DNA from: a virus
Direction: 5' to 3' (one strand)
DNA: 64,000 nt
Virus record (IMG/VR): IMGVR_UViG_3300023174_000098
Span: 39,613-103,612 of that record
Part shown: positions 33,052-56,415 of the stretch, one piece after another
Numbering within the stretch: the first letter of the stretch is position 1
How the letters are laid out: each line of letters opens with the position of its first letter
The notes under the pieces: model-generated
What the model was told of the DNA's origin: nothing
Seen by the model: the letters and a program-made list of their open reading frames with translations, nothing else
The model's database searches: none
Position numbers and translations under genes: made by a program

Positions 33052-35115
33052 CTAATTAGAATGAGATATTGCCCTGGATAATTCAGTTAGGATAACGTCC
33101 TCAGATTCTGTTAATATTTTATTACTATTTAATGTATTTGAGGTATTAGTTGGTGTCTTTGTTAATGTTGGTGTCTTTGTTAATGTTGGTGTCTTTGTTA
33201 GTGTCTTTGTTAATGTTGGCGTCTTTGTTAGTGTCTTTGTTAATGTTGGCGTCTTTGTTGGTGTCTTTGTTAAAGTGTGAGTCGGAGTCCCAGTCACTGT
33301 AGGTGTGCATGTTGCCGTTCTGGTTATTGTGGGTGTCTTTGTTTTTGTTGGAGTATTAGTTAAAGTTTTGGTTAGTGTTAGTGTTGGAGTATTTGAATTT
33401 GTGGCCGTTTGAGTATTGGTTAATGTAGGAGTTTTTGTTAATGTAGGAGTTTTTGTTAATGTAGGAGCTGGAGTTTTGGTTATTGTGGGTGTGCATGTTG
33501 ACGTTCTGGTTATTGTCGGAGTCTTTGTTTTTGTTGGAGTATTAGTTAAAGTTTTGGTTATAGTTCTAGTTAGCGTTGGAGTTCTAGTTAGCGTTGGAGT
33601 TCTAGTTAGCGTTGGAGTATTTGAATTTGTAGCTGTTTGAGTATTGGTTAATGTAGGAGTTCTTGTTAAAGTTGGTGTTTTTGTTAGTGTAGGAGTTTTT
33701 GTTAGTGTAGGAGTTTGCGTGGGTGTTCGAGTATATGTCTTTGTTAGAGTAGGTGTTCTGGTATTTGTTGGAGTAACACTTTTTGTTGGAGTTGGAGTTC
33801 TTGTTACACAAACACTAGAACCATCGCCGCTACTGCTGGCACAAATTGGATTTGGAACGATGTTGCTTTGAGTGGAATATTCCCAATAACCAGCAACACT
33901 AGATTTGTAGAATGCGGCCTTATACCACTCATCTTCAGATGGAATATAATACATAGAATTCGGATTTTTATCTATTTCGAAAAATATTTCTGATCCGTTT
34001 AAATTATATGCCCCCGACTCAGTCTCTGTTGTCGATGGATGTGATACGCTATTATGAAGCCAATTAGCCATCCTAGCAGCACTCAACCAGCTAACAAAAT
34101 TAACTGGTTTGTTGCCCATTTTTGGTTTTACTAAATATGTGTATCTTCCTGATACACCAGATATTTGTATTCCTCCTGCTGGATCTTCGGACATTGAATA
34201 GTTGTATAAATTATATGGATCCGATTTTGCTACAATATTAAGAAACGCACAATATTCAGTGTTTGTCACAGGGTATTTTTGTATCAAGTAGTTGTATCCC
34301 ACGCTTCCGAAGGAATACTCGCTATCTGGTAAGTTTCCAGGATTGCCTACTCTAATAAATTTACTATAATTTAAAGGATTTTCTATTGAAGATAATCTAA
34401 AGCCTATTGTTTTATCTTTGAAATTAAATTCGAATCTGTTTCCCTTCCATAAATCATTAGAAGAAAAAGATCCTCCACGTATAATTTTTTTACTATTACT
34501 TCCATCTGTTAATTCCCATACATTTCCATTCATGTCATAGGTGCCATATGCACTTGGTCCTCCATTAGTGCCAACAGAAGTTGGCCCTCCATCATTTCCC
34601 ATTTCTCCCCAATAAGCATTTTTTTTATAATTTGCACTGTTGCCCGCAACTGATGTTGCAGTAGGAGTTGATGTTTTTGTTGGTGTTAACGTTTTTGTTT
34701 TTGTGGGTGTAGCAGTCAGGGTGGGAGTTGTTGTATTAGTAGATGTTAATGTTGGTGTTAATGTTGGTGTTTTTGTAAGTGTTGGTGTTGAGGTTGGAGC
34801 TATATATTCCAAAACCAGGGTTCCTATCCATCCCGCATCACAGGCGGATACTGCGTTCCACGAATCATTTTCCCACACATAATGATTATGGTTATAGCAC
34901 TGACCTGAAGCATTATTTTTATTAAATTTGTCATACTGGGAGGAGCTCTGAGGTACATACCCAGACCCAGACTCTATGGATTTTATGTAAGCCAGGTTTC
35001 TCTGATCCCAAGCTAATGTGTATGGTGCACCATATCTCAATCCAATGCTTATGGCATCATTTATTATTGTAATTGTTGGGTCTTTTGCGTATTTTTCTAG
35101 TTCTTCGTTTGGCAT
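33052..35115 (-). CDS. adhesin: permuted FGE-type domain with Thr-Pro linkers
   Basis: 687 residues. An N-terminal domain (1-105) is followed by a TPTLT linker. A formylglycine-generating-enzyme (SUMF1) fold comes next in swapped order: the normally C-terminal part first ([18 protein letters not shown]... RGGSFSS... IGFRLSS, about 178-250), then the N-terminal part ([24 protein letters not shown]... [17 protein letters not shown]... [15 protein letters not shown], about 270-420). A Thr-Pro repeat of about 220 residues with PTLTKT units follows, then a short C-terminal helix. Probably a fibre or surface adhesin. A TATATA box lies 6-11 bases before the ATG and no ribosome site is seen. Confidence 0.75.
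33124..33800 (-). repeat. Thr-Pro-linker coding repeat
   Basis: An imperfect array of 6-, 18- and 24-base units encoding TPTLTK-type peptides in the adhesin. Larger blocks are duplicated: the segment with [14 protein letters not shown] occurs twice. Confidence 0.9.
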
Positions 35116-35120
35116 AAAAA

Positions 35121-35126
35121 TATATA
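35121..35126 (-). promoter_or_regulatory. TATATA box close to the adhesin start
   Basis: TATATA at -11 to -6 from the ATG at 35115, with only T between. The transcript would be nearly leaderless if this is a -10 element. Confidence 0.35.
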
Positions 35127-35185
35127 GTTAAAATGTTTTAGTTAATTATAGATGTCATCTGCCAACACAATTTTCAATGTAAAGG

Positions 35186-36439
35186 TTATAGTTGCACAAC
35201 ATCCACGCCAGAGTTTCCGTTTGCTATGTATATTTTATTTGAAACAGCATCTTCCACAAAAGAGCTGCACCCGCCGGATAAGTTTTCAATTGATGCAAAT
35301 GTTTGATTTTTTGTGTTCATTGTAAATAAAGCAGACGACTTGTACGAATCTGCTAGATAAATCTTATTTTTTAAAGAATTTATGCTAAAGTTTATTACAT
35401 TTATTTGTTCCGAGTTTTGATTATATGGAATTGTTATTCTATAATCTAATATTGAATTGGTATTTGTATTTAATAGTAAAAATTCATTAAAACCCAAATC
35501 TTTAGTTGGAATGTATATTAAGTTAGAAGATAAGTCTATTTCCATCGACTCTGATTTTCCCCCCTTGGGAAGATAAACAGTACTCTCTAGAGTCATATAT
35601 CGTAAGTCAATGACCAATATAGATTCACTGCTGGCATCTAATACATATGCTTTATTATTATTCTTGTTGATTAATAATTTAACGAATCGGTCTATTGAGT
35701 ATTCACTCAATATTATTGAGTTGACCACTTCTCCATTTCTTATTTTTTTCAATGAATTTTCTTTACGGCTAGTCGCCAATACATAAATTGATCCATCGTT
35801 TATTTGAATATCCATTGGATAAACATTTATATTTGTTATTTTTTCGATATCCCCATTAGATTTTGATAATTGTATAATTTGATTATTTGCAGTATCAGAG
35901 ACATATAAGCTGTTGGCATCTCCTACCATTTTCCATATGTTTGCTGGTGATGTTATATTATAATTAGAAACTATTTGATTATTTATTGTGTTTACAACTT
36001 TGATACTAAATCCAGTCGAAGCATATAATCTATTTTTATTTTTATCGAAAACTAAATTCTTCACTCCTGGTATGTTTATTCTTGGTTTTGTAGGCGTAGC
36101 TGTGGGCGTCGGAGTCATTGTCGGAGTAGGAGTGATTGTTGGTTTTGGTGACACAAAAACAGTCACCTCATCACTCGCCAGAACTGTTAATCCAGTAGAA
36201 TATGAACCAGAGGTTAATATTACTCTATATTTGTGTCTGTTCATTGCCAATGAAGCAACAAAACTTATTATGTTTGAATCTACTCCCACATTTTTCCAAA
36301 CATCTGGTTCTGTGGATTTTTGCCATTGATATGAGATTGCTGCCCCCGATTCTGTTATTGCCTGAACAACAAAACCTGTCTGTTTCTCATCTATTGCGTG
36401 CAAGTCTTTTGGCTGTAAAATAATCGTTATTGAATCCAT
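35186..36439 (-). CDS. Ig-like / beta-propeller virion protein
   Basis: 417 residues. The N-terminal 95 residues look like an Ig-type domain (ISYQWQKSTEPDVWKNV... KYRVILTSGSYSTGL). A short TPTPTMTPTPTATPT linker follows, then a beta-propeller (about 125-417) of repeated blades such as NKLYVSD/NQIIQL, SIYVLATS, KAYVLDASSESILVIDL, NLIYIPT and KIYIANG, as in YVTN/NHL propellers. Likely a surface-binding tail or capsid-decoration protein. TATATA lies 7-12 bases before the start and no Shine-Dalgarno is seen. It is upstream of the permuted FGE adhesin on the same strand. Confidence 0.7.
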   Translation of the reverse strand: MDSITIILQPKDLHAIDEKQTGFVVQAITESGAAISYQWQKSTEPDVWKNVGVDSNIISFVASLAMNRHKYRVILTSGSYSTGLTVLASDEVTVFVSPKPTITPTPTMTPTPTATPTKPRINIPGVKNLVFDKNKNRLYASTGFSIKVVNTINNQIVSNYNITSPANIWKMVGDANSLYVSDTANNQIIQLSKSNGDIEKITNINVYPMDIQINDGSIYVLATSRKENSLKKIRNGEVVNSIILSEYSIDRFVKLLINKNNNKAYVLDASSESILVIDLRYMTLESTVYLPKGGKSESMEIDLSSNLIYIPTKDLGFNEFLLLNTNTNSILDYRITIPYNQNSEQINVINFSINSLKNKIYLADSYKSSALFTMNTKNQTFASIENLSGGCSSFVEDAVSNKIYIANGNSGVDVVQL

Positions 36440-36444
36440 ACTTT

Positions 36445-36452
36445 TATATATT
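36445..36452 (-). promoter_or_regulatory. TATATA box close to the propeller gene start
   Basis: AATATATA at -13 to -6 from the ATG at 36439, the place of a T4-type late box for a leaderless transcript. Confidence 0.35.
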
Positions 36453-36479
36453 ATAAAAAATAAAATAATATCCCCGTTG

Positions 36480-36508
36480 TTGACTTTTTGTGAAAATTGG
36501 GTTAAAAT
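36480..36508 (+). promoter_or_regulatory. sigma70-like promoter of dnaE-N
   Basis: TTGACT and TAAAAT with 17-base spacing, giving a leader of about 35 bases. Confidence 0.7.
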
Positions 36509-36551
36509 AATTAATTGATTTTAAAAAAAATAACTCATCTTTTGTTTCAAA

Positions 36552-37940
36552 ATGAGCGATAAAATAGTCGAAATTGTTGGATTTGAACATTTACACCTTC
36601 ACACCGATTATAGTCTCCTTGATGGTTTTCAAACTGTAGAAGAGGCTGGAAATCGTGCCATTGAAATCAATCAAAAGTTTCTAACGGTATCTGACCACGG
36701 TATGCTGGGAGCAGTCCCAAGACAAATCAAAATATGTGATAAAATATGTGATAAATACAAAGATAAAAATAAGTTGAGTCCCATATTCGCCAGCGAACTA
36801 TATATCAATTCACTACAACCAGAGAGTTCTGGTTTGGAGGATATGCAAAATTTCACCAAAGACCTATCCCCAGATGAAATCGATACTCTAAAAGCCAGTC
36901 CTCACCTATTAGCAATAGCTTACAGCCTAGAGGGTTATAAGAATCTTGTAAGATTAACTAGCTGGGGTTGGACCAAGGGCTTCTACAGAAAACCTCGGGT
37001 TAATTATGAACAGCTCAAGAAGCACAAAGAAGGCTTAATATTTACAAGCTGCTGCTACAATAGCGAAATTGGAAGAGCCTTTGATAAAGGTGGAGAAGAA
37101 TCTGGCTTTCAAATGCTTGAAAAGCATCTAGAAATGTTTGGTAAAGATCATTTCTATTTGGAGCTCATGCTTTTAGATTTTAAAAAGCAGTTTGCATATG
37201 ATGCTTTTATTGTAAAATGTCATGAAAAATATAAGATTCCTTTGATAGTATCTTGCGATGTTCATTATTGTAATAAAGAAGATAGTCACTATCAACGCTT
37301 GATGTTGATGATCCAAACTAATAGAACATTAAAGCAGATAGAAGAAGCAAAACAAAAAGATAGTATGGCAGACTTCTTCGAGCTTCAAGATGAAAATCTA
37401 TGGATGAAAAGTGAAGAAGAGCTTAATGAGAAATGGCTAAAGGACTATAGTGAAATTATTCCTTATGAATTATTCCAAGAAGCTAAAAAAAATACAGTCA
37501 GAATATGCGAGAAGGCAAAAGGGGTTACATTTGATAGAAGCCTTAAACTTCCTGTAATAGAAGATGGTGATGAAAAATTAAAAGAACTAACCATAAGAGG
37601 TTTCAATGATAGAAACCTCCCTAAAACAAAAGTCTATTTAGACAGATTAAAAGAAGAAATTTCTCTAATCAAAAGAAAAGGTTTCAGTAGCTATTTCCTC
37701 ATTCAGAAGATGATGACAGACGAAGCCAGAAGAATATGCCCTCAATTACTTGGTTGGGGAGATGGAAGTGAAGCCGTTGGTCCCGGCCGTGGAAGCGCTT
37801 GTGGTTCTCTTCTCTGCTATTGCTTGGGCATAACAGACGTGGATCCAATCAAAGAAGATCTTTTATTCTCCAGATTTTTAAGTGAATCTCGAGGAGGAAG
37901 AAGTATGATTTTAGAGTTTAAAGATATCGATCCTATTTAA
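36552..37940 (+). CDS. dnaE: DNA polymerase III alpha, N-terminal part of split gene
   Basis: 462 residues. A PHP domain starts at HLHLHTDYSLLDGF (about 14-27) with further His/Asp motifs (SDHGMLG, SCDVHYC). The palm begins with the glycine-rich VGPGRGSACGSLLCYCLGITDVDPIKEDLLFSRFL (about 409-444). The protein then ends with a short unrelated tail exactly where the catalytic PDIDxD motif should follow. It therefore has the proofreading-like and Gly-loop parts but no catalytic aspartates; those are in the gene at 40433. Both parts are needed for a family C polymerase. Confidence 0.9.
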   Translation: MSDKIVEIVGFEHLHLHTDYSLLDGFQTVEEAGNRAIEINQKFLTVSDHGMLGAVPRQIKICDKICDKYKDKNKLSPIFASELYINSLQPESSGLEDMQNFTKDLSPDEIDTLKASPHLLAIAYSLEGYKNLVRLTSWGWTKGFYRKPRVNYEQLKKHKEGLIFTSCCYNSEIGRAFDKGGEESGFQMLEKHLEMFGKDHFYLELMLLDFKKQFAYDAFIVKCHEKYKIPLIVSCDVHYCNKEDSHYQRLMLMIQTNRTLKQIEEAKQKDSMADFFELQDENLWMKSEEELNEKWLKDYSEIIPYELFQEAKKNTVRICEKAKGVTFDRSLKLPVIEDGDEKLKELTIRGFNDRNLPKTKVYLDRLKEEISLIKRKGFSSYFLIQKMMTDEARRICPQLLGWGDGSEAVGPGRGSACGSLLCYCLGITDVDPIKEDLLFSRFLSESRGGRSMILEFKDIDPI

Positions 37941-37953
37941 TAAAGGTTTTATT

Positions 37954-38067
37954 ATGTTCTATGAACTTGCTGTTGCTTTTGGTGTAGAATATGCCTTGCT
38001 TGTCAACAGTCTACCAAAAGATTTGATCATAACGGTAGAATACAAAAAAAATAACACCCCTGTTTGA
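37954..38067 (+). CDS. small ORF after dnaE-N
   Basis: 37 residues (MFYELAVAFGVEYALLVNS...), 13 bases after the dnaE-N stop, with an AAAGG ribosome site. The stop lies in the loop of the terminator. It may be a true peptide or residue of the gene split. Confidence 0.4.
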   Translation: MFYELAVAFGVEYALLVNSLPKDLIITVEYKKNNTPV

Positions 38068-38090
38068 CCAAGGGTGTTATTTTTATATTT
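38050..38090. terminator. bidirectional terminator at the dnaE break
   Basis: AATAACACCC and GGGTGTTATT form a perfect 10-bp stem with a 12-base loop. T-rich stretches follow on both strands (A-run on the left, TTTTATATTTTT on the right), fitting the convergent genes on either side. Confidence 0.85.
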
Positions 38091-38103
38091 TTATATTGAA
38101 GAT

Positions 38104-39057
38104 TTAGCGATTGTATTTACCAAATTTTCCAAAATAGTCTTCATCTTCATCTGACTCTTCTTCATCTCCGCCATAATCTTCATCTGAGTCTTCATAGCTA
38201 TCTGAATCTTCATCCTCATCTTCTGATTCTTCGTCTTCTGATTCACCTTCCTCAGAATCTTCATAATCTTCCTCTGAATCATCGGACTCTTCTGAATCCG
38301 AATCTTCTGAGTCATCATAATTATCTGAATCTTCGTAATCATCTGAGTCATCTTCTTCTTCGGAGTCTTCTGAGTCATCACTGATATACTCTTCTCCATC
38401 CTCTGAATCTTCCGAATCCTCTGAATCATCACTATATTCTTCATCATCGCCCTCCATCTCGTCAGAAGCATCTTCTGAATCGACTTCATCTTCTGATTCT
38501 GGTTCACCGTCGTATAGTTTTTCGAAACCAATAGGGCCAGCAACACTTTCATAGAGGTTTTTGTCTTTAAGCATTTCAACGAGAACCGCCTCTGATAGTT
38601 TGGATCTCTTTATTTCTCTTACAACGTTCTCAATAAGTTTTGGATTATTTTTCATTGCAGATACTGCAACTGCAAGTAGATCCTGGACACTTTTAATCTT
38701 GCTATAATCTATTTCGACATTTTTTTCTTCATGAATATTTTTTGCAAATTCAGATAAGGACATTCCTTTTGTTTTATGTATCCACTCCGATACCTTTGAT
38801 ACTTGGCTTGTTGGCCCAACTTTTGTTGGTTTGCTTGGTTTTGGAAGATTTGGGCCATCTTCTTTTTCTTTGTGCCATTCTGGCGACTTATTTTGTAGAG
38901 GTTCTGTTTTTGGTTCATAGACTAATTTTTTGTTTCCATGATGTCCAAGAGCATTCTTGTTTTTCTTTGCCTTTATTTTTTTACTGGTCATCTTTGGTGG
39001 ATTTTCTTCCACTTTACCCTTTTCATTTAAATACTCATTAAACTTTTTGAATGCCAT
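38104..39057 (-). CDS. acidic virion-type protein with capsid-targeting N-terminus
   Basis: 317 residues. MAFKKFNEYLNEKG carries the shared targeting pattern with a possible processing site after LNE12. A basic region follows (about 15-70), then a helical middle (VQDLLAVAVSAMKNNPKLIENVVREIKR), and a 120-residue Asp/Glu/Ser tail (from about 190) of SEDSEDSEE type. It resembles the acidic protein at 14487 in architecture but not in sequence. I chose the third codon as start because GGGAG stands six bases before it. It lies on the opposite strand between the two dnaE parts. Confidence 0.65.
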   Translation of the reverse strand: MAFKKFNEYLNEKGKVEENPPKMTSKKIKAKKNKNALGHHGNKKLVYEPKTEPLQNKSPEWHKEKEDGPNLPKPSKPTKVGPTSQVSKVSEWIHKTKGMSLSEFAKNIHEEKNVEIDYSKIKSVQDLLAVAVSAMKNNPKLIENVVREIKRSKLSEAVLVEMLKDKNLYESVAGPIGFEKLYDGEPESEDEVDSEDASDEMEGDDEEYSDDSEDSEDSEDGEEYISDDSEDSEEEDDSDDYEDSDNYDDSEDSDSEESDDSEEDYEDSEEGESEDEESEDEDEDSDSYEDSDEDYGGDEEESDEDEDYFGKFGKYNR

Positions 39058-39059
39058 GA

Positions 39060-39233
39060 TCATCTCCCTTTTCTAAGTTGCATTAAAATCCACATTATGA
39101 TATAAATTAGTGGTCCTATCCCAAAAAATAAAAAAGAAGCAACAAATCCAATACGTATCCAATTTGGATTTATATCTGTTTTGTCACCCAAGTCAGCACA
39201 GACTCCCAGTAGGACTGATTTGTTCTTTTTCAT
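39060..39233 (-). CDS. PspC-domain membrane peptide
   Basis: 57 residues. The pattern GVCADLGDKTDINPNWIRIGFVASFLFFGIGPLIYIIMWILM is that of the PspC domain, with a first amphipathic helix and one membrane segment (about 28-51). In bacteria PspC senses envelope stress and binds PspA. A phage copy could modulate the membrane stress response during infection; that is inference. It overlaps the start of the acidic gene (ATGATCATG), so the two are coupled. Confidence 0.7.
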   Translation of the reverse strand: MKKNKSVLLGVCADLGDKTDINPNWIRIGFVASFLFFGIGPLIYIIMWILMQLRKGR

Positions 39234-39278
39234 ATAATTTATTTATGCACAACTAGTTATATTATTCTTGGAAAAACG

Positions 39279-40373
39279 TCAAAAACACATCTCTTTGTAT
39301 CTAATATGTTTTCTTTCCAAGTAAACGGTTGCGTTATCATACAAGTAGTCACCTGCTTTTTTAGCCTGCCGCCTTCCTCCTATTGAAAAACTATAGTTGT
39401 TTTTGTCATCTTTGTGTCTTTTTTGAAGTTTTGCTTGCTTGCCCAATATTTCTTGACATTTGAGTAAAAACTCTTTTGTCCCACACAGGGCGAAGGCATA
39501 GAAATTATTGTTTTTTTTAAATGATCCATCGCCATCAAAATATCCTCGCATGAAATGATTTTGTAATTCTTTTGGCACAATTGATTCATCTGGAAACTTT
39601 AATATCAATGTCTTTTTTTCAAAAGCGCCTTTAGCCACTAAATTATCGAATAATTGATCTGAACTCATTAGTAGTCGGCAATACTCTATTTCTACTCCTC
39701 CAAAAGACTTGGATTTATATATATTTATTGGATATGTAGAATTAATATGTTTTTTGAATGTTTCTAAATGATTGATATCTTTTGTGCTTAAGGCTATTCC
39801 AAGTTTTTTTTCTGTTTTTGTTTTTTTACTAACGTATCCATCGGCATAAATAAAACCCAACCAATATGCTTTATATTCATTGTCTATTTTGTTAAAAAAA
39901 TCATGATCAACATCATACCTCCTAGAATTTATTTTGTTGCTACGAGTAAGCCCTCTTTTTTTAAGGTTATTTGTCAGCTTGCCAATTCCTATTCCTGTTA
40001 TTTCAATTACCTTTATCGATGACAAACCAGATTTATATAAATTTATTGATTTTTCTAACAAGGGATCGTATTTAACTATTTTCTTTTTTGATATTTTTAA
40101 TCTTTTTATTTCTTGTCTAAGTGTATGTTTTGAAACTTTTGTCAATTTGTTAACTTCATTTAAACTTTTACCATTTTCATAAAGATTTAACGCTTCTTCT
40201 AAACTTTCTTTTGTATAACTTTTACGTGCTGCTTCCTTGGCGCTTCTTGTTAAACCCAATTTTCTAAGTTGGTATTGTAGTCCTTGAAAAGAAGCCCCAG
40301 TCGCCGCTGCCGATTTTTCTATTGTCTTTCCTTCTTTATAGATAATAATTGCTTTTTGTATTGATTCTTTCAT
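39279..40373 (-). CDS. free-standing LAGLIDADG homing endonuclease
   Basis: 364 residues. The N-terminal third has three helix-turn-helix-like repeats (GKTIEKSAAATGASFQGLQYQL; GKSLNEVNKLTKVSKHTLRQEI; GLSSIKVIEITGIGIGKLTNNL). The nuclease core follows, with two LAGLIDADG helices: AYWLGFIYADGYVS (about 185-198) and HFMRGYFDGDGSFKK (about 273-287). Both Asp residues are present, so it should be active. It sits between the two halves of dnaE in reverse orientation, the arrangement expected for an endonuclease that targets one of the flanking coding sequences. Confidence 0.88.
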   Translation of the reverse strand: MKESIQKAIIIYKEGKTIEKSAAATGASFQGLQYQLRKLGLTRSAKEAARKSYTKESLEEALNLYENGKSLNEVNKLTKVSKHTLRQEIKRLKISKKKIVKYDPLLEKSINLYKSGLSSIKVIEITGIGIGKLTNNLKKRGLTRSNKINSRRYDVDHDFFNKIDNEYKAYWLGFIYADGYVSKKTKTEKKLGIALSTKDINHLETFKKHINSTYPINIYKSKSFGGVEIEYCRLLMSSDQLFDNLVAKGAFEKKTLILKFPDESIVPKELQNHFMRGYFDGDGSFKKNNNFYAFALCGTKEFLLKCQEILGKQAKLQKRHKDDKNNYSFSIGGRRQAKKAGDYLYDNATVYLERKHIRYKEMCF

Positions 40374-40432
40374 ATGTGTCCTTGTTTTTATTAAATAATC
40401 TATGTATAATATAGTTTAAATAAAAATATTTT

Positions 40433-43060
40433 ATGAAATCAAATATATTTAAAATTTGTGAAGAAAAATTAAAAGAAAAAGGATTATTTGAGGATAAAAG
40501 ATATCAAAAAAGATTGAGCTGGGAACTCAAAGAAATAGAAGTTCAAGATAAAGAAAATTATTTTTTAGATCTATCAGTAAGAAAAGTAACATATCCTGAA
40601 AATCAAAATAATCTTTTGGTTCCATATCTTTTGGATATAGTTAAAGATTTCGACATAGATCGAGATCCTGAATTTTTCTATGGTGACCTACCAGATTGTG
40701 ATGTAGACTACATTCCTGTAGTGCGTGAATTTTTAAAGAACGAATGGGCTTCCAAAACATTTGGCGAGCAATATGTTTGTAATATTGGTAATTATACAAC
40801 ATATGGTATTAAATCATCATTGATAGATATGGCTAGAGTTCATGATAAAGATAGAGGAGAATTACTTGCTTTAACCACTAAACTTCAAACCAAGGATGAT
40901 GAAGGCAAAGCTTTGACTTGGGAGTCGGCAATGAAAGTTGATCCTGGTCTTAAAAAATATTGTGATGATAATCCTGATGTTGCAAAAGCCGCACAGAAGT
41001 TAATTGATCGAAATAGAGGCATGGGAGTTCACGCCGGTGGACTTATAATCAGTAGCATACCATTAACCGATCTTGTTCCTCTTGTTAAAAGGAAAGATGA
41101 TCCTCAAGCAAGTGCTTGGGTAGAAGGTCTTCACGGTCAAGACCTACAGCCGGTGGGTCTTGTTAAATTCGATTTGTTGGTTATTAGCAATCTTTTACAA
41201 ATAGCTCACTGTTGCAGGCTTGTGCATGAGCGACATGGTGTAGAAAAAATATGTGCTCTTCATGGCAAATCAAATTGGACCGATGTGGACTGCTATAGGA
41301 ATGATGAAAAAGCATTGATAATGGCAGATGAAGGAGATCTTAAATGTATCTTTCAGTTTGATTCAGATGGAATTAGAAATCTTGCTAGATCTGGTGGTGT
41401 TACAAGATTTGAGGATTTGGTCGCATACTCGGCTTTATACAGGCCTGGTCCGTTAAATATGAAGATGCACGAGAGATATATTGAGAGAAAAAGAGGCCGA
41501 GAGGAATATGAGCTTCATCCCATATTAGATTCTATTTTAGAGAAAACTTATGGAGTTATTGTTTACCAAGAACAAGTAATGAAGATTCTCAATGTGGTTG
41601 GTGATATTCCAATGCGAGATGTCGAGACTGTCCGAAAAGCCATAAGTAAGAAAAAAGTAGAACAATTCATAAAATACAAAGAAATATTTATAAAGAATGG
41701 AAGTAAAAACCTTGATCAGACAGAAGAAGAATTAGAAAATTTGTGGAATCTTATAGAATCTTTCGCTGAGTACGGCTTCAATGCTAGTCATGCCACCGCC
41801 TACACCCACGTTAGTTCTCGTCTTCTTTATTTAAAATCACACTATCCACAAGAGTTTTATACTGCTATTTTGATGTGTGAAGACAATACCGATAAAATCA
41901 AAGAGTATAGAAAAGAAATAATAAAGCACAATATAAAGATCAATAAGATTGATGTAAATAAATCTAAAGCAAATTTTAGCCTTGTTGATGATGAGATATA
42001 TTTTGGATTTTCTAATGTAAAAGGTATAGGAATAAATGTTGCTGAGCAGATAGTTGAAAAGCAACCTTATATCAATTTTGAAGATTTTATAGATAGATTC
42101 GGTACAGATTCTAGTGTCTTGAAACCTCTGGTGGCAACCGGTTGTTTCAAGGACTCTGATCCTGTTACGCTTTTTAAGTTTGCCGAGTCTTATAAAGATT
42201 ACATAAAAAAGAAAATTGATAGAAAGAAAAGACATCAGGCCTCTAGCAAAAAGAATAAAGAAGTATTAATGGATTTGATAGAAAAGGCCGAGAATTCCGA
42301 CGAGACTGTCGCTCGTCTCTCTAAAGGTGAAATTAGTCAAATAGATTCTAAAGATCTTAAAAAAGTAAGTAATTGCGAAATATGGAAAGAAAGATATAAG
42401 GGTTTAAAAATAGATGACAAAGATTTGTGGAAAGAAGTTTGCAAGCTAATAAACAAGATGACCAAGGCCACAGAAAAATTTAAGCTTAAAGATAATCAAG
42501 ATAAGCCAAAATTAGAGTCCTTTGACTCATCCCTAATAAGCATAGATAAAAAACTAGAAAAAGAACTTCTTGAATCTCTTCCCGAATGTGAGAAAAGGTA
42601 TTATGGATTTTCTTGGCAATCAAAAATCCAGGCAAGCCCTGATTATAAAGGCGGATATACCTTTGACTCCTTCACAGAGGGTGTTAATGAAATTTTGCCT
42701 GTAGAAGTCGAAATCATGGCCGTTAATAAAAGAAAAGGCAAAAGGGCAGAATATTATCAGGTAAAAGCCGAGGATGAAAATGGCGATGAAGGAATCATTA
42801 ATGTTTGGAAAGATGATTATAATTCTTTTCAAAAAGAGATAGTTGTTGGTAATTTTGTAAGATTGAGATTGAATGCGCCATCGAATGGTTTTAAAACGTA
42901 CACACTCTCTTCAATTGGACCAAGGAATTTTTATAAAAAGAAGCAAGTTGAAAGAGAAGATGACTACAGACTTGTCTTGTTAAGAAAATCTGATGGGATA
43001 TTGGACGAAGTTACCATTGAACAAGAAAAGGAAATAGAAAAATGTCAGACGAACTCGTAA
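40433..43060 (+). CDS. dnaE: DNA polymerase III alpha, C-terminal part of split gene
   Basis: 875 residues. It opens with about 85 residues that echo the region before the catalytic motif (RLSWELKEIEVQDKENYFL), then the catalytic LPDCDVDY (about 86-93), the third Asp in LVKFDLL (about 247), YRPGPLNMK, YQEQVM and YGFNASHATAYTHVSSRLLYLKSHYP. A helix-hairpin-helix (FSNVKGIGINVAEQI) and an OB-type domain (VEIMAVNKRKGKRAEYYQVK) follow near the C-terminus. With the 36552 product it makes a complete family C core. Its ATG has no clear Shine-Dalgarno, and an ATAATATAG stretch lies about 20 bases upstream. Confidence 0.92.
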   Translation: MKSNIFKICEEKLKEKGLFEDKRYQKRLSWELKEIEVQDKENYFLDLSVRKVTYPENQNNLLVPYLLDIVKDFDIDRDPEFFYGDLPDCDVDYIPVVREFLKNEWASKTFGEQYVCNIGNYTTYGIKSSLIDMARVHDKDRGELLALTTKLQTKDDEGKALTWESAMKVDPGLKKYCDDNPDVAKAAQKLIDRNRGMGVHAGGLIISSIPLTDLVPLVKRKDDPQASAWVEGLHGQDLQPVGLVKFDLLVISNLLQIAHCCRLVHERHGVEKICALHGKSNWTDVDCYRNDEKALIMADEGDLKCIFQFDSDGIRNLARSGGVTRFEDLVAYSALYRPGPLNMKMHERYIERKRGREEYELHPILDSILEKTYGVIVYQEQVMKILNVVGDIPMRDVETVRKAISKKKVEQFIKYKEIFIKNGSKNLDQTEEELENLWNLIESFAEYGFNASHATAYTHVSSRLLYLKSHYPQEFYTAILMCEDNTDKIKEYRKEIIKHNIKINKIDVNKSKANFSLVDDEIYFGFSNVKGIGINVAEQIVEKQPYINFEDFIDRFGTDSSVLKPLVATGCFKDSDPVTLFKFAESYKDYIKKKIDRKKRHQASSKKNKEVLMDLIEKAENSDETVARLSKGEISQIDSKDLKKVSNCEIWKERYKGLKIDDKDLWKEVCKLINKMTKATEKFKLKDNQDKPKLESFDSSLISIDKKLEKELLESLPECEKRYYGFSWQSKIQASPDYKGGYTFDSFTEGVNEILPVEVEIMAVNKRKGKRAEYYQVKAEDENGDEGIINVWKDDYNSFQKEIVVGNFVRLRLNAPSNGFKTYTLSSIGPRNFYKKKQVEREDDYRLVLLRKSDGILDEVTIEQEKEIEKCQTNS

Positions 43061-43467: not shown

Positions 43468-43473
43468 GTTATT

Positions 43474-46966: not shown

Positions 46967-46967
46967 A

Positions 46968-47441: not shown

Positions 47442-47471
47442 TTTGTTACCTCTAATGTATATAGGGAAAGT

Positions 47472-47960: not shown

Positions 47961-48276
47961 TTGCTTATTTTTAGGAATGAGATTTTTAGAATTAGAAATA
48001 CCTAAAGAAAAAAGATTTCTTTTAAAATATTTTACCACAAGTATTCAAAATACTTTTATTAAATATTTGATATTTTTTGGGGATTCTGAGAATTTTTGCG
48101 ATCACACGGGATTCAGGTGCCAAAAAAGGTGGTTAAATGATCTTACCGAAAGGTATAATGATTTAATTTATCTTTATGACAAGGCAAAAAAAGATATGGA
48201 TTTAGAACTTTTAACAAAATTGGATAGTGGAAAATTAGCCCTTGACAAGAAACAATGTAGATATATAATTAAGTAA
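47950..48276 (+). CDS. hypothetical protein
   Basis: 108 residues if it starts at the TTG overlapping the previous stop; a Met nine codons on (MRFLEL) is the alternative. Helical, with an FCDHTGFRCQKRW segment. Translationally coupled to the previous gene. Not recognised. Confidence 0.5.
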   Translation: MEYDCLFLGMRFLELEIPKEKRFLLKYFTTSIQNTFIKYLIFFGDSENFCDHTGFRCQKRWLNDLTERYNDLIYLYDKAKKDMDLELLTKLDSGKLALDKKQCRYIIK

Positions 48277-48279
48277 AGT

Positions 48280-48291
48280 TATATATATAAT
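48280..48291 (+). promoter_or_regulatory. TATATATATAAT directly before a virion gene start
   Basis: A 12-base alternating TA stretch ends one base before the ATG at 48292. A second box (TATATAAT, 48262-48269) lies about 22 bases upstream and could give a short leader instead. Confidence 0.35.
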
Positions 48292-48933: not shown

Positions 48934-48939
48934 TTCAGG

Positions 48940-49494
48940 ATGAACAAATTTTACAACAACAATAACAGGTATTTTACCAATCATGGTAATCAACCCAAGC
49001 ATAAAATTAATAATTTTATAAAGGCTCCTTGTGTAAGAGTTATAAGTGAAGGTCAGCAGATTGGTATAATGAATACCGCCTCTGCTCAAAGACTAGCGCA
49101 AGATAAGAAGCTTGATTTAGTGGAGCTGGTCCCGACCGCAAATCCACCAGTATGCCATATTATAAATTATGAAAAATATCTCTATGAACAAAAGATAAAA
49201 GAAAAAAGCTCAAAGAAGAATAAGAATGATTTAAAGGAGATCAGATTTAAATCTTGCATAGAGCAAAATGATCTTAATATAAAAATCAATCAGGCCAAAT
49301 CTTTTCTTGAAGATAAAAAGAAACTTCAGATCACCGTTAGATTTAAAACATATAGAGATTTATCTCACAAAGATAAGGGATTTGAATTAATTAAAAAGTT
49401 TATCGATGAATTGAAAGATCTAGGCATAGTTGAAAAAGACCCCTTCATTTCTAGCAATCAAATTATTGCAAGAGTTGTTCCAAAAAATCAATAA
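48940..49494 (+). CDS. infC: translation initiation factor IF-3 homologue
   Basis: 184 residues covering both IF3 domains. The N-domain contains VRVISEGQQIGIMNTASAQRLAQDKKLDLVELVPTANPPVCHIINYEKYLYEQ. The basic linker (KKNKND) is followed by the C-domain LKEIRFKSCIEQNDLNIKINQAKSFLEDKKKLQITVRFKTYRDLSHKDKGFELIKKFIDEL. The length and motifs are standard, so it should bind the 30S platform and monitor start-codon selection. The N-terminal 25 residues (Asn-rich) are phage-specific. It follows a virion gene by six bases. Confidence 0.92.
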   Translation: MNKFYNNNNRYFTNHGNQPKHKINNFIKAPCVRVISEGQQIGIMNTASAQRLAQDKKLDLVELVPTANPPVCHIINYEKYLYEQKIKEKSSKKNKNDLKEIRFKSCIEQNDLNIKINQAKSFLEDKKKLQITVRFKTYRDLSHKDKGFELIKKFIDELKDLGIVEKDPFISSNQIIARVVPKNQ

Positions 49495-49525
49495 AAATAC
49501 TATATTATATTTGAAAGGCATTAAA

Positions 49526-49756
49526 ATGAAAAATTTACTTGATAATAAACTGTTTTGGTTGGCATCTTTTCTGGCTTCTGCCCTACTTATATCGGCTGTA
49601 TTCTCTAAACAGGTCTCCAACTTAATTGTTGAAAATCATTACGAGAATATTGCAGATATTGTAATAAAGAAGCTTCAGAAAGAATATTCACCATCACCTT
49701 ATGGCCCAGGAATTGATCCAGATAAGATAGATATGGATAAAATCAAGAAGAACTAA
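49526..49756 (+). CDS. small single-span membrane protein
   Basis: 76 residues with one membrane segment (LFWLASFLASALLISAVF, about 9-26) and an acidic, Pro-rich C-terminus. I chose the ATG at 49526 with GAAAGG upstream; a longer frame overlapping IF3 is unlikely. It could be a holin-like or inner-membrane accessory protein; not assignable. Its stop abuts the convergent protease gene. Confidence 0.55.
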   Translation: MKNLLDNKLFWLASFLASALLISAVFSKQVSNLIVENHYENIADIVIKKLQKEYSPSPYGPGIDPDKIDMDKIKKN

Positions 49757-50566
49757 TTACTCTTTTTTCACCACAATCACGTCTTTATTTTTTGAAACAA
49801 GTTCTTCGTGTTCGTTAATATTGCTGTCTATCCAATCCGAGTATAGACTTATGCGGGTAAACGCAGATTCGTCTGTGTAGGCTCCATTAGCTTTTCCGTC
49901 TGTTGACATTAAAAAAGAATTTATCCCGGCTAATTCATTTCCAATAAATAAACCCCCACCAGAATCTCCTGGTGTGATCATGAATTCTAATGCCGTTTTT
50001 CCTGTGATACTTGGATCACAAACCATTACTCCCCTCTCTAGGCCGCTTATTTTATTGCTTCCGGCTCTCCTTCGATTATCTCCCTCTTGCGCTCCTGTAT
50101 TAAAAGTTCCACGCATACCGAAGCCGGAGATAGTAGCTATTTTGCCAAGTTCGTCATCTTTTTTATATAATTTGGGATAAGAATTTAGTCCAAAATCCTT
50201 TTCAGAATAGCACAGAGCAATATCATATCTTGCGTGTACATCATCATTATATTCTTTGTGTTTTATTACTGTTAAGGGATAATGTTTACACGTTTTTTCT
50301 TCGCAATCTCCTATAATAATTTCCGACTTTTCTGTCCCATCTACAACATGAGCAGCGGTTAGTGCCCAATGCGACCCTATCAGCACGGAAGATGCGGATC
50401 TGTTGTATTCTTCTCCGTCAATTTTAAAACTTGATTTAATTTTTACTACAAAATAAAATTTTTCACCAAAATCAATATATTTTTCATCGGGGGTTGATGG
50501 GTCGATAGTGCCAGCCAGAGAAAAATTATGAATCAACAACAGAAATAAAAATATTAATTTTTTCAT
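49757..50566 (-). CDS. exported trypsin-like serine protease
   Basis: 269 residues. Signal peptide (about 1-18), then a chymotrypsin-fold peptidase with the complete triad: His73 in LTAAHVVDG, Asp115 in YDIALC and Ser202 in GDSGGGLF. It is predicted to act in the periplasm or outside the cell. Possible roles are cutting host surface proteins, processing adhesins or aiding lysis; none can be chosen from sequence. Such S1 peptidases are rare in phages. Confidence 0.88.
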   Translation of the reverse strand: MKKLIFLFLLLIHNFSLAGTIDPSTPDEKYIDFGEKFYFVVKIKSSFKIDGEEYNRSASSVLIGSHWALTAAHVVDGTEKSEIIIGDCEEKTCKHYPLTVIKHKEYNDDVHARYDIALCYSEKDFGLNSYPKLYKKDDELGKIATISGFGMRGTFNTGAQEGDNRRRAGSNKISGLERGVMVCDPSITGKTALEFMITPGDSGGGLFIGNELAGINSFLMSTDGKANGAYTDESAFTRISLYSDWIDSNINEHEELVSKNKDVIVVKKE

Positions 50567-50635
50567 TTTATTAGGATTATATTAGCATAAAGTATATACT
50601 AAACATTTTCAGAAAATTTTAACTCAATTATGTTT

Positions 50636-50941
50636 ATGGAAAAGATTTCTATAGAATATTTGGTGCCAGTTTTAGTTAAGATAGGAGATAACAAACACCT
50701 TTGCATGTTTAATTACGCAGATAGTAGTGTTTATTTTTTAGATCATGAATTATCTGACGATAAGAAAAAAGAAATACAAGATATTGCATTGAGGACTTTA
50801 GTCGGAGATAATTTAAAAGAATATAAATTTAATAATAATCCGCTAGTAAATGTTGGAAGTCTATTGTCTGACTTAAAAAATAATAAATTTGAAAGATATA
50901 GGAATTTTGAAGAAAACGAAGAAAGCAAGGAGGACGAATAA
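50636..50941 (+). CDS. hypothetical protein
   Basis: About 101 residues; a Met two codons earlier is also possible. The pattern VPVLVKIGDNKHLCMFNYADSSVYFLDHELSDDKKKEIQDIAL suggests a small alpha/beta fold with an acidic tail (ENEESKEDE). It overlaps the next gene by a base. Not recognised. Confidence 0.55.
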   Translation: MEKISIEYLVPVLVKIGDNKHLCMFNYADSSVYFLDHELSDDKKKEIQDIALRTLVGDNLKEYKFNNNPLVNVGSLLSDLKNNKFERYRNFEENEESKEDE

Positions 50942-51234
50942 TGCTAGAAGCAGAGAATCTTAAGTTTCAATTATCAGCGGGCCAAGATGAATCAAGACAG
51001 CCCTGTAGTTTTAAAATTATAAATTTTAAAACTATCACCAAATTGATAGACTCAAAAGATTTAGATGAAAAGGTTAAAAATCGTCTGAAAAAAATGGCCT
51101 CAAGTTATCCTCACCAAGCACTAGAGGGATTTATAAGAACTTTAGACAAGAACATCATGATAGCTCAAAAAGAAATTATAAAAGAAGAAAAGCAGAAACC
51201 TAAAGAAATAAAAGAATTGGAGTTCCCAGAGTGA
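50941..51234 (+). CDS. hypothetical protein
   Basis: 97 residues, helical, Lys/Glu-rich, with AGGAGGA just before the overlapping start. The segment YPHQALEGFIRTLDKNIM is the only distinctive part. Not recognised. Confidence 0.55.
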   Translation: MLEAENLKFQLSAGQDESRQPCSFKIINFKTITKLIDSKDLDEKVKNRLKKMASSYPHQALEGFIRTLDKNIMIAQKEIIKEEKQKPKEIKELEFPE

Positions 51235-51443
51235 AGGTTTTTTTAATAGTAAATGTGGCAAGACAAATTAACGGAGAATTTATCTTTGTTAAAGTTGAAA
51301 AAGCTTTTAAGGACATGTTAAAAGCTGAGACTTATTTTAATTCTCTTGCTAAAAATACAAAACAATTAATTCAAACTGCCCAGGGTTTTTCAGTTGAGTG
51401 TTCTTGTGAATATTCAATCTTTGACGTTGAAACAGAAGAATGA
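51231..51443 (+). CDS. small hypothetical protein
   Basis: 70 residues from a GTG that overlaps the previous stop. KVFLIVNVARQINGEFIFVKVEKAF... FSVECSCEYSIFDVETEE suggests a small beta-alpha-beta protein. The next gene's promoter lies in its last codons. Not recognised. Confidence 0.5.
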   Translation: MKVFLIVNVARQINGEFIFVKVEKAFKDMLKAETYFNSLAKNTKQLIQTAQGFSVECSCEYSIFDVETEE

Positions 51444-51455
51444 AAAGCCTATAAT
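51427..51455 (+). promoter_or_regulatory. sigma70-like promoter of the glycosyltransferase gene
   Basis: TTGAAA and TATAAT with 17-base spacing, located across the end of the preceding gene. Confidence 0.68.
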
Positions 51456-51483
51456 AGGTTTAAATCTAAACAAGGAAAATAAT

Positions 51484-52212
51484 ATGGCTAAACCATACAA
51501 TCCCCTCGAAGGTGACCGTGCAGAACTTTCTATACCAATGCACAATAGCACCGAAGAACAAGTCAGCATCATAGTGGTCCATAAGGACAGGCCTGAGTAT
51601 CTCAATATTTGTCTTCAGAGTATTGCTGTCACTAGTTTTAGTAATAATTATGAAATAATAGTTGTTGATAATGGAAGTGGAGAAGAGTCTCAGTCGTTTT
51701 TGGAAGATATTAAAAACGAGGTTAAACTCGTTAGACTTCCGAAGAATGAATTTTGGAGCAGTGCTGCAAATAAGGGTGCAAAAGCTGCTGATAAAAATTC
51801 AAAGTATTTTATTTTTATGCATTGTGATGTTGTCATACTCAATGCGGCATGGTTGGATCTTCTAATAAATGTCGCAGAAAATAATAAAGCCGGTCTTGTT
51901 GGCGTTGATTTTTCAAGCTATATGATGGGTGATCAAAAGGTAGAGTTTTTACAAGAGTATCTTTGTTTAATGACAAAAGAATGTTGGGAAAATTGTGGTC
52001 CTTGGAATGAAATGCTCCCACAGGTTGGTATGAGTTTCCTTATGACCCTCAAAACACAGAATAAGGGATACAACCCGCAGGTAATGAAGAATCCTATCTG
52101 CCACCATTACCAGATATTCAGTCTAGATATTAATGATTATGAAAGATTGACCGAAGATGCAATGACTACTCTTCCAAAGTTATTGAGTGATGTGCAATCT
52201 AGACCGATTTAA
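51484..52212 (+). CDS. family 2 glycosyltransferase
   Basis: 242 residues. The GT2 start VSIIVVHKDRPEYLNICLQSIAVTSFSNNYEIIVVDNGSGEESQ is followed by NEFWSSAANKGAKAA and the Asp-containing metal site FIFMHCDVVIL (here Cys-Asp-Val in place of Asp-x-Asp). The acceptor half is short. The start is set by AAGGAAA before the ATG at 51484. Likely partner of the other glycan-modifying genes. Confidence 0.8.
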   Translation: MAKPYNPLEGDRAELSIPMHNSTEEQVSIIVVHKDRPEYLNICLQSIAVTSFSNNYEIIVVDNGSGEESQSFLEDIKNEVKLVRLPKNEFWSSAANKGAKAADKNSKYFIFMHCDVVILNAAWLDLLINVAENNKAGLVGVDFSSYMMGDQKVEFLQEYLCLMTKECWENCGPWNEMLPQVGMSFLMTLKTQNKGYNPQVMKNPICHHYQIFSLDINDYERLTEDAMTTLPKLLSDVQSRPI

Positions 52213-52658
52213 CTTGGAACTTTTTCTTTAATAAACTCGATCCATTCCTTGTGATGGAATGTAACAACAGGATGTTTTGCATAGGTGGCTGCATAGGCCA
52301 TAGCAAAAAGCTCTTCATCGTTTTGTTGTAAAGATTTATTATCTCTATTTTTGTTCTTAATTTTTTTGGCTAAAGGACTCCATTCTTTTTTGAGTTCTTT
52401 GGTCATCTTTTCTTCCCATATTCTGTGGGCTATTTCGTGCAATGTGACCCATTCTCTACCATAATTCCAAGGCGCTGATACTTCTATATTTTTGCCCTGG
52501 ATTATTCCTACATGACCATGATCGTTGTCCAAGGTGTTGTCTGATGTGTATCTAAATTTAAATCCATCCAAAAGTTTTTGATGACCCCTAGGTAATTTAC
52601 CTATAGTTTTTTTTATGCTTTTGCTATCTTCTTGCTCAAGGAATGTTTTAAAATTCAT
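52209..52658 (-). CDS. HExxH metalloprotease-like protein with capsid-targeting N-terminus
   Basis: 149 residues. The N-terminus MNFKTFLEQEDSK has the shared targeting pattern. The zinc motif HEIAHRIWEE (His74, Glu75, His78) is followed by DEELFAMAYAATY about 40 residues on, where Glu115 or Glu116 can be the third ligand, as in gluzincins. The preceding VSAPWNYGREW strand fits the substrate edge. It is compact and probably active. The combination suggests a protease loaded into the head and delivered with the DNA; that is inference. Convergent with, and overlapping, the GT gene. Confidence 0.7.
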   Translation of the reverse strand: MNFKTFLEQEDSKSIKKTIGKLPRGHQKLLDGFKFRYTSDNTLDNDHGHVGIIQGKNIEVSAPWNYGREWVTLHEIAHRIWEEKMTKELKKEWSPLAKKIKNKNRDNKSLQQNDEELFAMAYAATYAKHPVVTFHHKEWIEFIKEKVPS

Positions 52659-52680
52659 ACAAATTATATATTACCTTGAA

Positions 52681-52686
52681 TATATA
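52681..52686. promoter_or_regulatory. TATATA box between divergent genes
   Basis: TATATAAAATAA runs up to the ATG at 52693 (box at -12 to -7), and the same palindromic box lies about 22-28 bases before the opposite start at 52658. Confidence 0.35.
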
Positions 52687-52692
52687 AAATAA

Positions 52693-55600
52693 ATGCCAGC
52701 CTCTCTTATACATGTATACGAATTCAAAAATAGTTTAAATGATACACTAGGTGGACCGCCAATCCGGGCAATCGGAGGAGCGATTACCGGTTCCAACTCC
52801 TATAGTTTTGGTCCCAACCAAGGGTTAATTCTTCAAAATGCATTGGCCTATAATAATAGCTATACAATAATAATAGACTTTAAATTTGATAGCCTTCCCG
52901 GCAATTGGCAAAGAATATTAGATACAAAAAATAGAACCTCAGATAGGGGATTATATGGTTACCAAGGTCACCTTCAATGGTTTCCTTATCTGAGCATAGA
53001 TGATGGCCTTATAGTGGCAGGCAAAACATCAAGAGTTGTTATCACTAGAGACGGCCAAAGTAATGTAGTTAATACATATGTTGACAATAGCAGTAAATTT
53101 TCTTGGGTTGATACCATTGGTGAGGCTATAGCATTTAATAATACTCTTTTGTTTTTTATAGATGATCTTGAGGTTCCTAATGAGTGCGCTCCTGGTCACG
53201 TCTATAGAATAGAAGTTTATGATGGACCGCTAAGTCAAGAAGAACTCCCAGATATAAATCAAGGCGGCAGAAATAGTGTTAATTATGATAATACTGCTTT
53301 TTGGGGAGCAGGATATCCAGGGGAAGGAAATTTAACTACTGTCGGCACAAATGGAGGTCCAAGCACATACGGAACATATGATCAATCTGGCAATGTCTTC
53401 GAATGGACAGACACTCTTCCACACGACTTAATTAATACTACCGGTTTAAACAGCAAAGAAGATCATTATTTAATGGGTGGTTGTTCGATCACCGGCCGAT
53501 TCTTTTCAGCATGGCCGGAAGGATACTTTATATCTAATCTGGGAAGTCAAAGTTATGGTAATGGCCGGGGCCCTTTTTTAGGATTTAGAATAGCTTCTAT
53601 CACAAATCCTATAAATTATAGCAATTTTGTTTTGATAGGAAATATTAATAACCCGCCTAATTCCAATAGAATTGGTTCTGTTTCTTATAATTATAAAATA
53701 CAAAAATATGAGCTTACCAATGATGAATATGTTCAATTTTTAAATTCAGTTGCAAAGACTGATAACTATGGATTGTATAGTTTTAACATGGGAGGCACTC
53801 CCGTAGGAGGCATATTAAGAACTGGAAGTTCTGGAAATTACTCATATTCTTCTAAGATTAATATGGGTAATAAACCTGTCAATTTTGTTGATTGGTTTTG
53901 CGCAGCAAGATTATGTAATTGGCTTCATAACGGAGGAGCATCGTCTAGTAGTACTGAGACCGGGGCTTATACATTAAATGGTGCCGTGACTGAAAGCGCA
54001 ACCTTTTCAAGGAATCCAAATGCTCTTTATTTTATCCCCAGTGAAAATGAATGGTATAAGTCCGCTTATTATGATCCAAACAAGAATGGGATAGGTGGAT
54101 ATTGGTCGTACGCAACTCAAAGCGACACAGTCCCAGATTCTGTATGCGCAAATAATGTTGGCGATGGCATAGTTTGTATTGTTCCTGATCCAACTCCCAC
54201 ATTGACTCCCACTCTCGGAGTTACTCTCACTGCTACATTAACACTTACTCCAACTCCCACACTTACTCCTACACTCACCCCCACGCTTACAAAAACGCCA
54301 ACTGTAACCCCAACATTAACATCAACAAATACTTTAACTCCAACTCTATCGTTGACTCCAACGCTCACTTCTACCCCAACACTAACTAGTACTTCTTGTA
54401 ATTGGGATCCAACAGACCCAGGATGCGCAGGTTGCCAAGAGTGTAATCCTCCAATCATAATAGGTTCTGTTACAACTAACGGGGAATTACTAGGAAATGG
54501 CAGCTTAAACTATATTATAAATTTACTTAGAAATGACAATTGTTGTAATGGAATAGAATACAAAACGAACGAACCAGGATCACCAGGATGGATAACCTTA
54601 TTAGATCATGTAGATTTAAATGATGGACCTCAACATGTAAACTCGGGATACAACAAATGGCCATCCACTGATTTTGCTTATAAATCTATATCTAATGTTA
54701 CTACTATTGGCACAAATGGTGGACCAAGCGCCTATGGAACTTATGACATGAGTGGCAATGTTTGGAACATAATAGGAGATGGAATAACCATAAATTGGGC
54801 GACAAATAATACCCTGGGTTGTTCTGATAAATCTTGTGTGGTATGGAGGGGCGGATCTTGGATGAATGTAGATGGACTTTCATCCAATCGTCCAAAAGTG
54901 GTGGGAGCTGATGTTTTTCATGAATCTTTGGGATTCAGACTTTGTACTTTAAACGATGAATCTTCAAGCGGAATATATTTTGTAGATATAGAAGACTTGA
55001 ATAATCAGTCTGATATGTCAATAGATGATAATGGAAATTCTGGATTTGGTTCTGTTTCCTACAAATATTCTATTGGAAAATATTCAATTACTAATCAACA
55101 ATATTGCGCTTTTTTAAATAGTATTGCCAAAAAAGATGACTATGGATTGTATAAAGGCGACGATAACATATACAATGTAAATTGTGGAATAATCAGAGAA
55201 GGATCTTCTCCAAATTATACGTATTCCACAAAGAGTAGAATGTGCAATAAACCTGTTGTACTTATAGATTGGTACGATTGTGCTAGATTTTGTAATTGGC
55301 TTCACAATGGTATGCTTAATGGAAATCAAGATACTTCAACTACAGAGGATGGAGCATATACTCTCAATGGAATAGTTCCAAAATGTGGAATTGTAGAAAA
55401 GAATGCTAATGCTAAGTATTGGGTGCCAAGCGAAGATGAATGGTATAAAGCTGCTTATTATAAAGGCAAGGGTTTAAATTCTGGTTACTGGCAGTATGCA
55501 ACCCAAAGTGATAACTTACCGAGTTTTGTATGCACCAACAGTCAACAGGATGGACTTCCTTACGCCTCTACTCAGAGAAGTGCAGATAATTTGTGTGTGT

Positions 55601-56415
55601 GCCTAGACCCAAATAGATGTGGTAATTGTAGAACTGGGTCTTTGAGTGAGTATATGAAAGTTGGGGCTAATAACGGCCCATATGGCGCCACAGAAATATG
55701 TTTTAGAGTTTTCTGTATAAAGCCTTGCATGTCAAATGAGTTTTGTATTCCCTTGCCCCCTCCTACTCCTACTCCAACTTTAACAAAAACCCCTACACTA
55801 ACACCAACGCTTACGCTCACTCCAACTCTTACTCAAACTTTACCTCCGCCAACAGCAAGTTTGACCGCCACTATGACTCCCACGGTTACTACAAGCTTGG
55901 TGCCTCTTTCCCCTGTAGGTGAAATTGCAGGATACAGAGTAGAGCTTATATTTGATCCTTTTCACGGCGCAGGTCCCGGAGATATATCATGCCAAAGTAG
56001 TCACGGATGTAATGGCGCTAAGTTTAATTTAACAATAAATGGGGTGTTTATTAAGACAATGAGCACAAATAATGCAGGAGGACCAGAAGATCCCTTAGAT
56101 GGCAGGTGCCCGATTGAAAAAAGCTTTTCTTCCATATATCCCTATCCAGATAAATCTAGCAATTCGTACGCTAGATACGACCACGCAACCATTCCTAGTA
56201 ATGTTAAGCCGAAAAAAGGTGGAGCCGATCGCCCGCTCCCAGGCAAGGATGAATATACATTTAAGTTGACTTGTTATTATGGATTTGGCTGTCACAGTGG
56301 CATAAATTGGTTAAGAGTGGTGGACGATAAGGGAAAAGTAGTTTTAAGTTACTGTATGCCACTGGACGTTGTTACTGTGGCTAATGACAAGAGTTATGTG
56401 ATTGATGCTTCTTAA
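52693..56415 (+). CDS. large adhesin: LamG-like domain, two permuted FGE-type domains
   Basis: 1240 residues. The N-terminal 190 look like a concanavalin/LamG fold ([15 protein letters not shown]... IDFKFDSL... [14 protein letters not shown]). A first SUMF1-type domain follows in swapped order: [16 protein letters not shown]... FLGFRIAS first, then [24 protein letters not shown]... [17 protein letters not shown]... [21 protein letters not shown] linker and a second swapped domain come next ([12 protein letters not shown]... then [24 protein letters not shown]...), then a linker and a C-terminal beta domain of about 170 residues. Likely fibre or decoration protein binding host glycans. Confidence 0.75.
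54187..54396 (+). repeat. Thr-Pro-linker coding repeat
   Basis: Imperfect units encoding TPTLT between the two permuted domains of the large adhesin. A shorter stretch of the same kind is at 55766-55850. Confidence 0.9.

Follow-up and report, generated by a model that had tools for sequence, protein, structure and literature searches.

The DNA analysed here (the window) is a 64-kb stretch of an IMG/VR record of an uncultured virus, itself 103,612 bases (103.6 kb) long. A Pfam scan matched the FGE-sulfatase family (PF03781) at six places in the record, and two window genes, each a single open frame without stops, carry three FGE-type units. Gene 1 (33052..35115, minus strand) encodes, according to Pfam and its translation, an adhesin-like protein of 687 aa, made up of a short N-terminal region, a Thr/Pro linker, one FGE-type domain and a long Thr/Pro-rich repeat stalk (TPTLTKT...; 33151..33804, minus strand). 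Gene 2 (52693..56415, plus strand), delimited in the same way, encodes 1240 aa arranged as an N-terminal domain (for which a PDB sequence search gave no match), two FGE-type domains and a C-terminal domain; between the two FGE-type domains lie a Thr/Pro-rich linker (54184..54396, plus strand) and about 90 more residues. Two PHROG matches to these genes were set aside for function: phrog_15511 matched the Thr/Pro repeats, and phrog_18508 ('kinase') matched partially and in the ordinary profile order.

We divided the ordinary domain into segment a (VGN..KYxVTNxEYxxFLN..NWLHN..GAYxLNG), segment b (the stretch ending SDxxP..GDG) and segment c (NxxNY..GTNGGPSxYGTYDxxGNVWE..RGGS..GFR). In all three window units, the C-terminal part of PF03781 (profile positions 135-253, 144-253 and 165-254) comes before the N-terminal part (36-134, 36-129 and 36-127), with whole-protein scores of 53.4 and 114.6 bits exceeding the curated cut-off of 23.3; the normal order of N then C was found in none of the three by Pfam or family HMMs. 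The domain of gene 1, a permuted FGE-type CLec domain of order c-a-b (residues 160-437; 33805..34638, minus strand; delimited from Pfam, HMM, AlphaFold2 and VIA-align results), comprises the normally C-terminal segment c (YGTYDM-GNVWE, RGGS, GFR; residues 162-247; 34375..34632, minus strand; Pfam and HMM), a 16-residue c-to-a join that newly links the former C- and N-terminal strands (34357..34404, minus strand; from the spacing across junctions) and the normally N-terminal segments a and b (residues 248-440; 33796..34374, minus strand). The same arrangement recurs on the plus strand in gene 2 (Pfam and HMM), both in copy 1 (c, residues 194-302, 53272..53598; a and b, residues 303-495, 53599..54177) and in copy 2 (c, residues 651-752, 54643..54948; a and b, residues 753-955, 54949..55557). 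Gene 1 and gene 2 copy 1 have the join sequence GFR(L/I)xSIxNPxNYSxFxxxG in common. The permuted order of all three units had been proposed in a sequence-only reading of the window, which Pfam and the HMMs bear out. That reading was also right to place the cut after the SDxxP segment, and the position can now be sharpened to between the GDG of b (SDxxP...GDG) and the NxxNY of c (NxxNY...VGTNGGPS(A/T)YGTYD); the domain that it saw at residues 178-420 of gene 1 is there but larger, at about residues 160-437. Its argument that a shared order in paralogues on opposite strands speaks for a permuted fold is weak, although the fold itself is supported, the real evidence being a wide family and structural models.

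A search of IMG/VR with the three window copies retrieved 78 loci, most of them c-a-b in two piecewise HMM scans, and after three further scans the count stood at 110 viral loci and 168 permuted c-a fusions (abcabc tandems left out, and some loci on one shared contig). The spacing from c to a was identical in 66 of 95 junctions, and the join measured 13-22 residues (median 15) in 71 aligned domains. Because the same order and a junction of near-constant length recur across 110 viral loci, chance is excluded. Many of the proteins are arrays (for example, cabcab and cabcabcabcab) in which the spacing from unit to unit ranges from tens to about 800 residues; at the other extreme, one locus (L021) is a 315-aa open frame barely longer than one permuted domain. 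No close isolate was found, as tblastn against INPHARED phages gave no match, and tblastn against plasmids gave a single weak match, from Streptomyces.

Not all of these loci are opened at the same point. Five have the order b-c-a, with the cut between a and b (L058, L061, L062, L065 and L069), and in four the cut falls within b, with YKAAYY on one side of it and YATQSD on the other (L050, L056, L057 and L072), so that three cut points occur across the phage family; the c-a join is kept in both of these groups alike. Conservation is low at each of the three cut sites (mean pairwise identity 0.25-0.36, versus 0.63-0.69 for the core motifs; alignment A2). One protein (L024) has a c-a-b domain and, directly after it, an a-b-c domain of ordinary order that clusters with sequences from planctomycetes. 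Two further loci are more intricate. At L047 (1399-10587, plus strand), a c-a-b domain (c835-927, a934-1000 ... a1282-1349, b1353-1417) apparently encloses, in one of its loops, an ordinary a-b-c domain (a1008-1142, b1144-1189, c1199-1293). The 1687-aa frame of L169 (1-5061, plus strand) mixes a, b and c pieces irregularly, with apparent double b segments, in a way that simple circular permutation does not explain.

Structure prediction, suggested by the sequence-only reading as a check, returned one compact unit for the gene 1 domain rather than two separate halves (AlphaFold2 with 70 permuted relatives; pLDDT 94.2, pTM 0.93), and the b-c-a permutant L069 was likewise modelled as one domain (pLDDT 91.9, pTM 0.92). 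VIA-align, a sequential aligner, placed residues 86-276 of the cab model (a and b) on the N-terminal part of FGE-fold chains, with moderate matches at Z 6-7 (CarF 5aoh, Z 6.8; residues 86-268 on 55-237 of 2y3c (TvpA), Z 6.0), and residues 1-169 of the bca model (b and c) on the C-terminal part of such chains (residues 3-165 on 193-329 of 2y3c, Z 10.7, rmsd 1.7 Å over 117 residues). Every row listed for either predicted model was an FGE/CLec-type protein, and the a+b and b+c parts of the models fit complementary ranges of 2y3c. Both alignments end at the c-a join, as would be expected of one shared fold whose chain is opened at a different point in each model. A Foldseek search of the cab model against the PDB and BFVD gave no match with E < 0.001, which we do not take as a sign of a new fold, since VIA-align on Foldseek's own list gave FGE/CLec-type chains alone. 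For the cab model, the predicted packing of c against a+b draws on the AlphaFold2 confidence together with the complementary bca match. As modelled, the phage domain combines a complete set of c, a and b, a short join of near-constant length and a cut in a poorly conserved loop, as a circular permutation would. In the CLec topology as published, β1 and β5, the strands at the two ends of the chain, form a hydrogen-bonded antiparallel pair (PMC5006420), so that a short turn could join them; Insert 2, from α2 to β2, is a frequent insert site that can support the binding region (PMC5006420), and all three cuts appear to fall in this α2-β2 region.

Two other structural readings have to be set against circular permutation. 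The units could be ordinary FGE domains that are domain-swapped or paired within arrays, the c of one unit or chain packing on the a+b of another, as might be imagined from the abundance of arrays and from the CLec member collagen IV NC1, which is listed as segment-swapped (PMC3779223). However, the single-copy proteins (the gene at 33052, and L021 with its whole frame of 315 aa) need no pairing between repeats, which also answers the sequence-only reading's concern that repeats might pair in the ordinary order; the spacing from c to a is near-constant whereas that between units is not; and the monomer is predicted confidently, all of which makes swapping or array pairing distinctly improbable. 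The PF03781 profile reports the domain as two fragments, and these separate stretches could be taken for two independent domains that are merely adjacent, a reading that we find barely credible: c is the β2-β5 half of one fold and a+b the remainder, the model is one compact unit at pTM 0.93, and the pieces occur together, linked by a short join of nearly constant length.

Circularly permuted domains were sought in cells as well as in viruses. Among the best 80 cellular loci listed in a permuted-profile search of contigs from 84,980 bacterial and archaeal species, none had the permuted order; most were abc, and about ten frames were tandem (abcabc, abcabcabc or abcabcabcabc), with c-a linkers of mostly 6-16 aa in the abcabc tandems. 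A second search, using a profile of the join itself, covered 387 verrucomicrobial and 392 planctomycete genomes (779), in which the matches mostly cover the a side alone; those examined, including the sole strong full-junction ones, were ordinary or tandem and none was permuted. The order that the sequence-only reading had asked to be looked for in databases thus recurs in many phages but was seen in no cellular relative that was retrieved, and the permutation is apparently phage-restricted within the samples searched. The closest sequence relatives are planctomycete and verrucomicrobial PEP-CTERM-type FGE proteins (for example, L073 and L090), which at about 40-50% identity share the loops and motifs of the phage units but, unlike them, have the order abc or tandem abcabc; they seem to carry signal peptides, some also end in a PEP-CTERM sorting tail, and they look like exported cell proteins and not like phage stalk proteins. 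Ordinary-order FGE proteins were also present on contigs classed as viral (L067, L070, L071, L073, L074, L076-L083, L212 and L214), and those examined begin with a signal-peptide-like stretch and have a tail resembling PEP-CTERM. Several of these contigs are short and could be misfiled bacterial DNA.

In our reading, and compared with the bacterial relatives, the strand that used to be C-terminal (GFR, β5) runs into the one that used to be N-terminal (FxxVG, β1) through a turn of about 12 residues, and the chain is opened in the loop region between helix α2 and strand β2. An ordinary domain was probably first duplicated in tandem (giving abcabc), after which its outer parts were lost; the c-a join would then have been kept while the termini came to rest at three places (cab, bca and inside b). 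The cellular abcabc tandems with short c-a linkers are the intermediates expected from such duplication and trimming. On trees built from segments rearranged into one common order, permuted versus ordinary order required four changes with 164 rows and two on a careful tree of 62 rows, and a single clade of all permuted rows was not rejected (p-AU 0.34); a second origin is possible, given that L017 and the cut-inside-b group lie close to the clade of ordinary order. We suggest more tentatively, as a rather speculative possibility, that the FGE/CLec scaffold has been re-cut repeatedly in these phages as an adaptation, with one ancestral β5-β1 fusion giving a closed ring-like topology, termini moving among at least three α2-β2 loops, whole ordinary domains becoming nested in permuted ones (L047) and the stalk being re-oriented relative to the binding face. 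If so, stalk attachment would shift relative to that face, and receptor-binding domains would be re-oriented with the binding site unchanged.

As to function, the fold is common to FGE, EgtB, PvdO and SenA, and the permuted domains might on that account work inside the cell or as enzymes (for instance in sulfatase maturation or small-molecule chemistry) instead of serving adhesion. Against such a role, which we consider unlikely, the catalytic cysteine pair of FGE (GGxxxCxxxxC) is present in 0 of 142 viral c segments (the first Cys alone in 2), arguing that these domains are not enzymes, and no NCBIfam family came near its cut-off. The Thr/Pro stalks and the tail-gene neighbours point elsewhere as well: in L021, the gene directly before the single-domain one encodes a protein of 1213 aa for which many tail-fibre and minor-tail matches were obtained, and the L057 permutant has a tape-measure gene at a distance of a few kb. 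In the window, the neighbours of gene 1 are a polysaccharide-degrading alginate lyase convergent with it (31849..32988, plus strand; PF05426, E=3e-54) and a Thr/Pro-linked protein with weak NHL/propeller-like repeats (35186..36439, minus strand; weak Pfam match), with no confirmed tail gene among them. With their Thr/Pro stalks and no obvious signal peptide, the proteins most likely serve as virion adhesins, in which the domains would act as non-enzymatic ligand binders held on the stalks. The stretch from GNVWE to GFR is by far the least conserved (identity 0.18; alignment A2) and corresponds to the segment between β3 and β5 in which proteins diversified by diversity-generating retroelements (DGRs) bind their ligands (PMC6328139), so this hypervariable stretch is likely the binding face. 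The same correspondence, and the place of the DGR protein TvpA in the top two structural matches to the bca model, might suggest that the permuted domains are themselves DGR targets, as Mtd and TvpA are. Yet no match to the reverse transcriptase family RVT_1 (PF00078) was found in the window record or in 39 related virus records (metagenomic, and possibly fragments), and we therefore do not class the domains as DGR proteins; they are probably not DGR targets, and we hold that reading to be very improbable. The sequence-only reading noted that FGE-type folds serve as variable ligand binders in phages; in some phages these are DGR-diversified, but probably not here. Taken as a whole, we consider it very probable that the window units are circularly permuted FGE-subtype CLec domains of non-enzymatic phage virion adhesins, derived by tandem duplication.

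Comparison with known systems places the phage units close to FGE-sulfatase/SUMF1-type domains (PF03781), with which they share homologous segments above the cut-off and all the fold motifs (KYxVTNxEYxxFLN, YGTYDxxGNVWE, RGGS and GFR), but from which they differ in being circularly permuted and in lacking the catalytic cysteine pair. TvpA and Mtd, the latter a phage receptor-binding protein, have the same fold, and in them too the variable segment is the binding segment; their order is ordinary, however, with a C-terminal variable region diversified by reverse transcriptase, whereas the variable segment of the phage units is not C-terminal and no reverse transcriptase was found. Within the CLec superfamily, collagen IV NC1 is already known for a variant topology, in which segments are swapped between subdomains rather than circularly permuted (PMC3779223). 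Searches of the open-access literature turned up no previous description of a C-type-lectin or FGE fold with a permuted chain, and a naturally permuted FGE-type lectin fold appears to have been unreported so far. A large phage family with three cut points, together with ordinary and tandem bacterial relatives, offers a natural series for testing how a permutation originates and what function it gains. Because sequential search tools split or miss a permuted domain, the receptor-binding modules of uncultured phages may be under-annotated.

The record also holds phage replication genes, for a DnaB-like helicase, a UvsX-like recombinase, a single-strand binding protein, a polymerase, a Dda-like helicase, an SbcD-like protein, thymidylate synthase, dihydrofolate reductase and ribonucleotide reductase. 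An intein that bears a LAGLIDADG domain interrupts the ribonucleotide reductase gene of the window (21872-25249, plus strand; PF14890, PF14528). The gene for DNA polymerase III alpha (36552-43060) is split into two pieces (36552-37940 and 40433-43060, plus strand) with 2.5 kb between them, and this gap holds an opposite-strand LAGLIDADG gene (39279-40373, minus strand) and a very acidic ORF rich in Asp, Glu and Ser (38104-39063, minus strand); no Rfam model matched an intron in the split gene, the one sub-threshold match being a chance one. Elsewhere in the window, a complete phage-encoded homologue of translation initiation factor IF-3 is present (48940-49494, plus strand; both Pfam domains, E 2e-25 and 4e-21), as are a dTDP-4-dehydrorhamnose 3,5-epimerase (61166-61768, plus strand) and two family-2 glycosyltransferases (51439-52212 and 31075-31809, plus strand).
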